From Clostridia bacterium (GTDB lineage Bacteria; Bacillota; Clostridia; Oscillospirales; Acutalibacteraceae): 64,000 nt of DNA. The DNA is taken from assembly GCA_017513525.1 (NCBI GenBank), contig JAFXFC010000048.1:1-64000 (forward strand), given 5' to 3'. The notes beneath the pieces are model-generated. The model was not told the DNA's origin. It did not search any database and worked only from the letters and a program-made list of their open reading frames with translations. This document shows, piece after piece, positions 2,481 through 4,794 of this stretch; the stretch's first letter is position 1; every line of letters begins with the position of its first letter. The translations under genes and the position numbers were made by a program.

Positions 2481-2918
2481 ATGAAAAACACATTAAAGAA
2501 AACATTATCATTACTGTTGGCTGTAGTAATGATGCTCACAATGACATTGTCTGCATCAGCTATGCAGATTTTTGTTAAAACCCTCGAGGGCTTAACTATA
2601 ACCCTTGAAGTGGAACCTAATGACTCTATTGATGCTATTAAGGCGAAAATTCAGGAGAAAGAGGGAATTCCTCCTGAACAGCAGGAATTAATTTTTGCCG
2701 GAAAACAGCTTGAGGAGGGAAAAACTCTTTCAGATTACAATATTCAGAAGGAATCAACTCTTCATCTTGTTGTACATATCCGTGGCGAGGAAGAAGCACC
2801 GACACCTGACGAAACCTGCAAGGACTGCGGCAGACCTGTACATGATAACACCTTCGTTCAGAAGCTCGTTTGTCTTATCGTTATGCTTATTAACCTCGTT
2901 AAATCAATGTTTGCATAA
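2481..2918 (+). CDS. Secreted ubiquitin with C-terminal Cys/helix tail
   Basis: The 145-residue product has three parts. Residues 1-27 are a Sec signal peptide ending SASA, placing the predicted cut exactly before ubiquitin Met1. Residues 28-103 are a complete ubiquitin fold: compared from memory with human ubiquitin, 60 of 76 positions match and no gap is needed. Leu8, Ile44, Val70, His68, Asp58 and lysines 6, 27, 29, 33, 48 and 63 are kept. Changes include K11L, R42E, R72H and G76E, so the end reads HIRGE and there is no Gly-Gly. Residues 104-145 are an acidic linker, then a CxDCG motif and a hydrophobic helix ending FA, shared with the next gene. AAAGGAG (2465-2471) precedes the ATG. Conjugation without processing seems impossible; binding to eukaryotic ubiquitin receptors is plausible. 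Acquisition from a eukaryote is inferred. Codons look like those of neighbouring genes. Confidence 0.95.
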
Positions 2919-2958: not shown

Positions 2959-4506
2959 ATGAAAAAAACAAACAAACTCTTATCAATCATCCTCGCAATC
3001 TTAATGGTTATGACAACCGTACCCTTTGCCTTTGCGGCAGATGAAACACCGACTACAAGAGAGGTTGACGGTAAAATCTATTATGAGCTTGATTCAGCAG
3101 ACAAGCTTTATTGGTTTGCAGAACAGGTAAACGGTGGAAATGTAGAAATTAATGCCATTCTCACCGACGATATAGTAGTAAATGAAAATTTGTTATCTGA
3201 AAAACTCATTTTAACTGAAAAAATTGAAACAAAAATCTCACATCGCGGCGGCAGCGAAACAGTAAAAGTTTGTGTCGCAGAAGTAAAAACCGGTGAGAAT
3301 GTCAGGGAATGGATACCTATGGGTACGGAATTGTGGGAAAATATGTATTCCGGACACTTTAACGGCAACGGTAAAACCATTTCCGGATTGTATGTTAATG
3401 AAATGTATGATTATGCAGGATTAGTTGGCAATGCATACGGTTGTACGATTGAAAACTTAACTTTAGAAGATTCCTACTTTAATTGTGAGTATAATTTTGC
3501 AGGAGCTTTTGTTGCATTTGCAGAAAACCCGTATGATGGGCATGTTTATTTGAAAAATCTTGTAAACAAATCTATTGTTTGCGGCAGATGTGCGGGCGGT
3601 ATTGTCGGATGCGTTCAGGGTACAACAGAAATATCAGGTTGTATCAACTTAGAAACTGTTTATCCTTTTTCTATCAATTATCATGAATATAAGGGCGGCG
3701 GAATAGCAGGAACAATACAAAATGAATTTTCTGCAACTGACTGTGTAAATCTCGGTAATGCCGAATATGCGTTTGGCAGCATAAATGATAGCTTTACAAA
3801 CTGTTATTATCTTGACACAGCATCAAAGGGAGTACCTTTTGATACGAATAATGTTTTAGCTGTTACAGCTGAAGAAGTAGCTTCAGGGTTTGTTTGTGAA
3901 AAGATTGGCGGACACAAAACAGAAGTCATAACTGAAGAACCTACCTGCACAGAAAACGTTTTTGAAAAAATTGAATGTCTGATATGTGAATATTCAGCAA
4001 TTCAAAAAGAAATCCCTGCAACAAACCACAACGATACCCTTGTTCAGGTTGAAGCAAAAGCACCCACTTGCACAGAAATCGGCTGGAATGCTTATGAATA
4101 CTGCACAGCTTGTGACTACACAACCTATACAGAAAAAGAAGCTCTTGACCACGATATAGTTATTGACGAAGCAGTAGCTCCCAAGTGCGATGAAACAGGT
4201 CTCACAGCTGGTCAGCATTGTTCCCGTTGTGATGCTATGACAGTTGTTCAGGAAGTTGTTCCTGCTCTCACTCACAAGGACGAAGATGGTGACTACAAGT
4301 GTGACTACAGCTGCGGACACGAATTTGAAAAGCCCGTTGAACCCGATGATCCTGATGTTCCCAATACTCCCGATGAACCCGACACACCTGACGAACCCAC
4401 AGATGAAACTTGTACAGACTGCGGAAAGGTTCACACAAACTTCTTCTCAGAAATCATCTGCTTCTTTATAAGAATATTTAACTTCATCAAAAATCTTTTT
4501 GCATAA
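2959..4506 (+). CDS. Secreted GLUG-like/Cys-repeat surface protein with the same C-terminal tail
   Basis: A 515-residue exported protein. Residues 1-26 are a signal peptide ending AFA. The middle (about 130-290) has Gly-rich GLUG/adhesin-like repeats such as FNGNGKTISGLYV and YDYAGLVGNAYG. Residues about 305-440 hold several CxxC repeats of the PTCTExG...YCxxC...H type, common in Clostridia surface proteins. A Pro-Asp-rich linker follows, then DETCTDCGKVH and a hydrophobic helix ending NLFA. That end matches the tail of the ubiquitin protein. The leader TTCCCGAAAGGAG before the ATG is also shared with the ubiquitin gene, 40 bases upstream, so they form one operon. Role unknown; adhesion or surface display is likely. 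A GC-rich hairpin follows at 4515-4539. Confidence 0.8.
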   Translation: MKKTNKLLSIILAILMVMTTVPFAFAADETPTTREVDGKIYYELDSADKLYWFAEQVNGGNVEINAILTDDIVVNENLLSEKLILTEKIETKISHRGGSETVKVCVAEVKTGENVREWIPMGTELWENMYSGHFNGNGKTISGLYVNEMYDYAGLVGNAYGCTIENLTLEDSYFNCEYNFAGAFVAFAENPYDGHVYLKNLVNKSIVCGRCAGGIVGCVQGTTEISGCINLETVYPFSINYHEYKGGGIAGTIQNEFSATDCVNLGNAEYAFGSINDSFTNCYYLDTASKGVPFDTNNVLAVTAEEVASGFVCEKIGGHKTEVITEEPTCTENVFEKIECLICEYSAIQKEIPATNHNDTLVQVEAKAPTCTEIGWNAYEYCTACDYTTYTEKEALDHDIVIDEAVAPKCDETGLTAGQHCSRCDAMTVVQEVVPALTHKDEDGDYKCDYSCGHEFEKPVEPDDPDVPNTPDEPDTPDEPTDETCTDCGKVHTNFFSEIICFFIRIFNFIKNLFA

Positions 4507-4556: not shown

Positions 4557-4794
4557 GGTTCAGATTTGGGTAGTACTGCCAAAAAGAAAAGCACTTCGCA
4601 AGAAGTGCTTTTCTTTTTGTGTTTATGTCCGCAGGACATAACTTCATTACGAGTGAAGCGAGTACTTCATTTTACTGCTTGCAGTAAACTTCATTGTCCG
4701 AAAAGCGGACATAAAATGAAGTTGCCTGACGGCAAATGAAGTGGCTGCGCCAATGAAGTGTGCTTTAGGCACAATGAAGTTGCCCTTCGGGCAA
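4557..4794 (+). repeat. Palindrome array B (AACTTCATT / AATGAAGTT linkers)
   Basis: It starts GGTTCAGATTTGGGTAGTAC, like array A, then carries a 17-bp hairpin (4581-4618). Palindromic words include 4624-4640, 4671-4688, 4695-4711, 4722-4735, 4742-4752, 4760-4772 and 4780-4794. Left-half linkers read ACTTCATT (4640-4648, 4664-4671, 4687-4695). Right-half linkers are the reverse complement AATGAAGT (4715-4723, 4735-4742, 4752-4759, 4773-4780). TATGTCCG (4624-4631) is complementary to CGGACATA (4706-4713), where the flip occurs. The tail leads into a promoter at 4818-4846. No gene is seen within 4507-4887. Confidence 0.9.
4581..4618 (+). terminator. Left-end hairpin of array B, GCAA tetraloop
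   Basis: AAAAAGAAAAGCACTTC (4581-4597) pairs perfectly with GAAGTGCTTTTCTTTTT (4602-4618) across GCAA, a GNRA-type loop. It is flanked by A and T runs and could terminate in either direction. The same stem recurs at 12592-12629 with a GAAA loop. Confidence 0.75.

Follow-up and report, generated by a model that had tools for sequence, protein, structure and literature searches.

We found a bacterial gene for a leader-headed ubiquitin at positions 2481-2918 of the window, the 64,000-nucleotide stretch of Clostridia bacterium DNA (Acutalibacteraceae) analysed here. The gene lies, like all features of the locus described below, on the forward strand, and its product of 145 amino acids consists of a leader of 27, a ubiquitin of 76 and a tail of 42 residues. 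We propose that it is an exported, conjugation-dead ubiquitin of Entamoeba-type amoeba origin, which is held at the cell envelope and would act by non-covalent binding; for this reading as a whole, we consider the chances to be about even.

The signal-peptide-like leader (2481-2561), read from the translation, ends in SASA directly at Met1 of the ubiquitin domain (2562-2789; residues 28-103), which aligns with human ubiquitin without gaps and is identical to it at 60 of 76 positions. The sequence-only reading from which this study started had given the same architecture and count, and alignment reproduced all of it. The 16 differences from human are T9E, K11L, S20N, T22S, E24D, N25A, V26I, D32E, D39E, R42E, D52E, R54K, L71V, R72H, L73I and G76E; I44, K48, H68 and V70 are kept. 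The domain belongs to the ubiquitin family PF00240 both by its profile score (E 1.2e-27, 95.9 bits versus a curated cut-off of 25.4) and by its beta-grasp fold: the ubiquitin core of an AlphaFold2 model reaches pLDDT values of 85-94 (blocks, residues 31-100), and Foldseek matches the model to solved ubiquitins, at 0.7 A from 4gsw_A. The domain evolves under purifying selection (dN/dS 0.07-0.21), with values of 0.205, 0.135, 0.068 and 0.093 against the related loci L024, L025, L026 and L028, respectively. Export is predicted with high confidence, the signal peptide having been judged by eye and by a simple rule of our own.

The gene is also set among bacterial signals, as had been claimed: an RBS-like AAAGGAG (2465-2471) stands 9 bases before the ATG, the stop codon of a TetR gene lies 4 bases before the same ATG, and the next leader-bearing gene follows 40 bases downstream. 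The TetR-ubiquitin junction was found again in other assemblies, on a 127 kb contig (L025) and a 31 kb contig (L026), and the ubiquitin reading frame is thus no assembly chimaera. Eukaryotic contamination or an assembly artefact might be suspected from the position of the gene, 2.5 kb from the contig end of a metagenome-type assembly, and from two leaderless relatives (L094, L102) that are possibly contaminants. The bacterial leader and ribosome-binding site and the adjoining TetR gene argue against this explanation, which the recurrence of the junction already refutes, and we regard it as extremely improbable.

The TetR-family regulator (1751-2476; PF00440, 42.5 bits) is the first gene of a presumed unit. 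A scan placed a promoter-like site, TTGACA-17-TAATAT, before it (1690-1718), one of eight such sites in the region versus a shuffle mean of 9.5, which is not above chance; L025 and L026 retain TTGACA and GTTAATAT of this site. We considered a TetR operator immediately behind the site but do not claim one, the inverted repeat being imperfect by eye. The gene downstream of the ubiquitin encodes a secreted repeat protein of 515 residues (2959-4506) with a signal-peptide-like leader and a GLUG match of 18.3 bits, under the cut-off of 20.5. The unit is followed by a terminator-like hairpin of 18 pairs (4580-4619); the scan found 14 such hairpins versus a shuffle mean of 2.4. Besides TetR and the repeat protein, the window neighbours include NUDIX, GH16 and a GH39/cellulase-like protein. 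Short direct and inverted repeats are clustered on either side of the region, at 228-441 and 4580-4784 (TTGATGATATACAA units; AATGAAGTTGCC units).

Among ten related loci, L025, L026, L028 and L033 have a TetR gene directly upstream of the ubiquitin gene, as does L027, where the contig end truncates it. No TetR neighbour was matched at L029, L031, L038 and L008, and L024 comprises 43 bases of upstream sequence only. Identity to the regulator of the window is 95% in L026 and also in L006, a locus in a genome from another genus of the same family, 92.5% in L025, 76% in L028 and 43% in L033; more distant ubiquitin genes with TetR relatives alongside are found in L015 (33%) and L003 (23%).

The capacity for conjugation appears to have been lost from the ubiquitin of the window. 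Its domain ends in RGEEE and the chain then continues with EEAPTPDET, so that the diglycine is gone and the mature C-terminus is not the GG of a conjugating ubiquitin. R42E, R72H and G76E moreover alter positions known to be linked to ubiquitin activation and recognition, with R42 and R72 linked to E1 and deubiquitinase binding. The protein is very probably not conjugable. A PF00179 (E2) profile search of its own genome gave no match, in a search whose control likewise matched nowhere. The same pattern extends to 73 full-length leader-bearing relatives, five of which keep GG, in no case at the terminus. I44 is kept in 70 of these proteins, K48 in 68, H68 in 72 and V70 in 64, and these four residues lie outside the search words, which covered ubiquitin residues 1-7, 27-34 and 57-64 and thereby partly built in the conservation of those stretches. 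Relative to an Entamoeba-like root, 34 distinct gut-clade domains changed most often at L73 (27), T9 (25), K11 (23), R72 (20) and L71 (18), followed by L67 (12), D39 (11), R42 (6) and L8 (6), the last of which is part of the hydrophobic patch of ubiquitin. By contrast, a single change each falls on I44, G47, K48, K63 and H68, and two on V70. The simplest reading of these comparisons would be that most of the ubiquitin surface was retained and conjugation abandoned.

From 2817 onwards, the C-terminal tail (2790-2915) combines a CxxC(x4)H(x9)C motif, in which C, C, H and C are invariant across ten aligned tails hand-chosen from those of the present gene set, with a helix. This helix occupies residues 125-144 in the AlphaFold2 model, reaches to the C-terminus and is amphipathic (hydrophobic moment 0.43-0.58, five tails). 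The repeat protein next to the ubiquitin ends in the same module (4405-4503), and a tail profile run against the genome of the window has three strong places, namely the ubiquitin gene, this neighbour and a repeat protein of 815 residues encoded on a different contig. Five further matches (E 0.17-0.96) were disregarded, as they cover the helix part of the profile only. Matches at E 1e-4 or better occur in 6 of 26 genomes of the genus; three of the five tail loci from its other genomes (L118, L119, L121) read as the end of a longer protein, and in the remaining two (L120, L122) the tail was not recovered by the motif rule. Downstream of the ubiquitin gene, L025 also has two tail-bearing proteins and L026 has one, and the proteins that come next in L033 and L024 carry weaker tails, which the motif rule passed over. 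BspA-type leucine-rich repeats (LRR_5) are found in the next proteins of L024, L025 and L033; the next proteins of L026 and L029 and the second one of L025 gave no family match above cut-off.

The tail appears to act as an exchangeable module, because in one protein (P0134) a ubiquitin head is combined with a tail of the identical sequence found in the window's repeat protein, and because synonymous divergence between L024 and the window rises sharply from 0 in the leader and 0.11 in the domain to 1.33 in the tail. About 100 extra residues separate ubiquitin from tail in L027 and L028. When the tail region was scored alone against a large protein database, all 15 matches at E <= 10 had a ubiquitin domain. 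Neither Pfam nor NCBIfam scans assigned the tail of the window proteins to a described family, and curated C-terminal sorting-signal models gave no match in the window protein. The C-terminus made of CxxC..H and an amphipathic helix, as in the repeat protein and in L118, L119 and L121, is apparently an undescribed module of secreted proteins of this genus. We lean towards an envelope-holding role for the tail of the ubiquitin.

Eukaryotic-grade ubiquitin had been said to be almost absent from bacteria, and this did not hold: one scan of a species-level genome collection yielded 325 stretches that encode relatives, and within the same family, matches occur in 19 of 397 genomes (18 over cut-off, own genome included). 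The feature itself proved real, richer in anatomy through its lost diglycine and shared tail, and wider in nature, whereas its exclusivity had been overstated. The best 80 of the 325, which were kept for analysis, fall by title, which may be wrong for individual metagenome bins, into 10 named phyla: Bacillota (44), Pseudomonadota (17), Actinomycetota and Verrucomicrobiota (4 each), Bacteroidota (3), Cyanobacteriota and Planctomycetota (2 each), and Fibrobacterota, Thermodesulfobacteriota and the archaeal Methanobacteriota (1 each), with one unassigned. Soil, fresh-water and marine bacteria are among the titles of the relatives. The 80 loci gave 81 domains, 76 of which have a leader-like stretch right before Met1 by our own rule, with alanine at -1 in 75. 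Three of the misses (L048, L054, L084) have no start codon within the range of the rule, and leader-like stretches are visible in L048 and L054; the other two are the leaderless L094 and L102. Most relatives are longer proteins headed by ubiquitin, with a median of 280 residues after the domain in 73 proteins. Within the genus, 3 of 26 genomes match, own included, and 23 do not; a sample of the phylum gave 5 matching genomes in 398 (4 over cut-off, own included). IMG/VR contributed 11 loci, seven of them leader-bearing by reading (L127, L130-L133, L135, L136), plasmid records 3 matches and phage records none. Searches of a large protein database, with the whole protein as with the domain alone, were dominated by eukaryotic polyubiquitins. 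One of the three plasmid matches, a 'ubiquitin family protein' of Ruminococcus albus 7 on a 421 kb record (NC_014824.1, 388171-388431), could provide a culturable test organism.

Several relatives stand alone instead of heading a longer protein. L130 (2322-2765) and L097 (4992-5402) consist of leader, ubiquitin and an IPTL-CTERM sorting signal and represent a minimal surface-type ubiquitin; their NCBIfam scores are 33.6 and 21.3 versus a cut-off of 20.5, with L097 below the corresponding Pfam cut-off (14.9 versus 20.8). The endings of L131 and L132 resemble that of L130 by reading, and L055, L057 and L069 have hydrophobic ends without a match to sorting models. The sorting signals on the two unrelated stand-alone proteins support envelope fixation of such ubiquitins, and the differing ends point to more than one origin of surface display. 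Not all secreted bacterial ubiquitins are conjugation-dead, since in an IMG/VR contig (L127, 2968-3291) the leader abuts a complete ubiquitin ending exactly in RLRGG, which is conjugable in principle; L127 is the single exception observed. A genome of the same family (L112, 8497-10003; G093:C22) has four tandem genes for proteins of 103-123 residues with leaders ending LSEEELELVIGG; three contain PF00240 domains and two end in RLRG or RLMG. These leaders resemble the double-glycine kind known from bacteriocins, and no transporter gene was recognised by eye beside the tandem genes.

The sequence-only reading had proposed horizontal gain from a eukaryote and a gut-protist donor, possibly Entamoeba-like, in place of the animal host, and our comparisons support an Entamoeba-like donor. 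Among the single-copy ubiquitins of the PDB, 4gsw scores best against the window protein (139.4 bits; runner-up 128.3). This is the ubiquitin of Entamoeba histolytica, which is 90% identical over 74 columns in Foldseek; the human-type chains in the Foldseek list of 50 lie mostly at 78-80%. That ubiquitin, a cytosolic modifier with an RLRGG end, differs from the window protein in having neither leader nor tail. Its sequence, checked by scores, shares N20, S22, D24, A25, I26, E32, E52 and K54 with the window domain. With one plausible tag added, the sequence comes within 0.2 bits of the printed 4gsw scores for three queries (139.4, 142.6, 147.8), and all but I26V of eight single reversions to human fit about 1 bit or more worse. 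PMC8588831 likewise identifies 4GSW as Entamoeba histolytica ubiquitin.

A 74-column tree was built from 83 prokaryotic and 40 eukaryotic domains, and its bootstrap remained unsettled; in this tree, Entamoeba forms a zero-length branch inside a 22-row set (97/90) and a 26-row set (99/89). The remaining 21 and 25 rows are bacterial, many with titles naming goat, sheep, deer or buffalo gut. The eukaryotes in the tree were taken from two match lists sorted by score against the query, in which ciliates, trichomonads and anaerobic fungi were not sampled by name. A single prokaryotic clade with one common origin was rejected (p-AU 0.001), and the supported branches require at least five changes between prokaryote and eukaryote labels; relatives in other phyla point to several uptakes of ubiquitin by bacteria. 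Convergence instead of Entamoeba-like descent is disfavoured by the eight shared differences from human and by the nested position, within the limits of a 74-column tree with unsettled bootstrap. We consider an Entamoeba-lineage origin of the window ubiquitin probable. A phylogeny had been suggested as a check, and it did place Entamoeba among gut-bacterial secreted ubiquitins, but the acquisition need not have been by this genome itself: the ubiquitin belongs to a clade of gut bacteria, a 95% identical TetR occurs in another genus and 23 of 26 genomes of the genus lack a ubiquitin match.

In searches of open-access literature, judged by titles and the beginnings of abstracts, BfUbb of Bacteroides fragilis was the one secreted bacterial ubiquitin to come up. 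According to two reports (PMC3352274, PMC5705921), BfUbb has a signal peptide abutting Met1 of a 76-residue ubiquitin without terminal glycine, as the window protein does. Its gene likewise belongs to a gut bacterium, is of eukaryotic origin and is patchily present in these accounts. They also describe BfUbb as soluble and as stopping at 76 residues with a C-terminal cysteine, whereas the 42-residue tail follows in the window protein, and they trace it to an entomopoxvirus-like gene, whereas the window ubiquitin is nearest to Entamoeba. The toxicity of BfUbb is experimental, 250 ng of the synthetic protein having been enough to inhibit other B. fragilis strains in PMC5705921, whereas the window protein is known from sequence. 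PMC3352274 further reports binding of human E1 and inhibition of ubiquitination in vitro, and the mode of action is left open there. Since the stand-alone 76-residue form is absent, the window ubiquitin counts as a variant of BfUbb rather than as a strict member of its kind, with the leader ending at Met1 and the missing terminal glycine in common. Signal peptide, ubiquitin and a C-terminal extension of 12 residues also make up the ubiquitin that the cyst nematode Globodera rostochiensis secretes (PMC5705921); that one is an animal gene and a plant-parasite effector, whose extension is removed within the plant and is unrelated to the tail described here. BilABCD likewise includes a bacterially encoded ubiquitin-like protein, BilA, which is accompanied by E1, E2 and JAB conjugation genes (PMC11354881), whereas profile scans of the window genes adjoining the ubiquitin found no E1-, E2- or JAB-like gene.

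The leader, the tail held in common with large repeat proteins and the sorting signals on stand-alone relatives make the envelope the likeliest location of the window protein. The locus could work as follows: TetR would control the unit, signal peptidase would free Met1, the tail would fix both the ubiquitin and the repeat protein at the envelope via its Cys/His motif and amphipathic helix, and the exported ubiquitin would bind its partners non-covalently through the native surface. Non-covalent action is proposed because the C-terminal glycine, which is used for ubiquitin activation, is absent. Antagonism, adhesion and decoy are all conceivable uses; by analogy with soluble BfUbb, such a protein may serve in short-range interaction with other gut microbes, which is our first, if tentative, choice of use.

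A diffusible antibacterial of the BfUbb type, exported, released and toxic to related strains, with the tail aiding release or membrane attack, is a possible though less likely alternative. It would fit the shared build up to the tail and the inhibition of B. fragilis strains by synthetic mature BfUbb (PMC5705921), the patchy presence in genus and family (3 of 26 and 19 of 397 genomes), and the tandem ubiquitin-like genes of a same-family genome, whose leaders are of a type known from bacteriocins. It is harder to reconcile with a tail that is common to repeat proteins of 500 or more residues and with the position of ubiquitin at the N-terminus of a longer protein in most relatives. No immunity gene is apparent at the window locus, but BfUbb producers are reported to need none. 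The ubiquitin could instead be a decoy or mimic directed against eukaryotes, engaging deubiquitinases or ubiquitin-binding proteins in gut protists, or in the animal once the bacterium has been taken up, as its amoeba-type sequence, the almost unchanged I44, K48, H68 and V70 and the in vitro effects of BfUbb on human E1 and ubiquitination (PMC3352274) might suggest. The same target is not obvious for soil, fresh-water and marine relatives, however, and R42E and R72H alter residues linked to E1 and deubiquitinase binding, so that we judge a decoy unlikely. A still slightly less probable explanation takes the ubiquitin to be only a stable folding cap or spacer at the N-terminus of surface proteins, without ubiquitin-specific binding. 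Ubiquitin does head very different secreted proteins in many phyla, and distant members such as L008 and L013 lose patch residues; yet the window protein is almost only ubiquitin and tail, and its surface residues are nearly fixed within its clade.

Ubiquitin is the textbook eukaryotic modifier, a tag of eukaryotic cells. Judging from the window locus and its relatives, extracellular ubiquitins form a broad and recurrent class, in which most members have no tagging end that could be used; the locus would also make a clear example of genes passing from a gut amoeba lineage into gut bacteria. More speculatively, eukaryotic ubiquitin may have been captured repeatedly in several phyla, dropped its tagging end and been displayed outside the cell through unrelated anchors; in gut Clostridia, the Entamoeba-derived form might constitute, together with the tail-sharing repeat proteins, a regulated surface apparatus directed at nearby microbes or amoebae. 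With identifiable tails, partners and donors, the role of ubiquitin outside bacteria becomes testable in many organisms.
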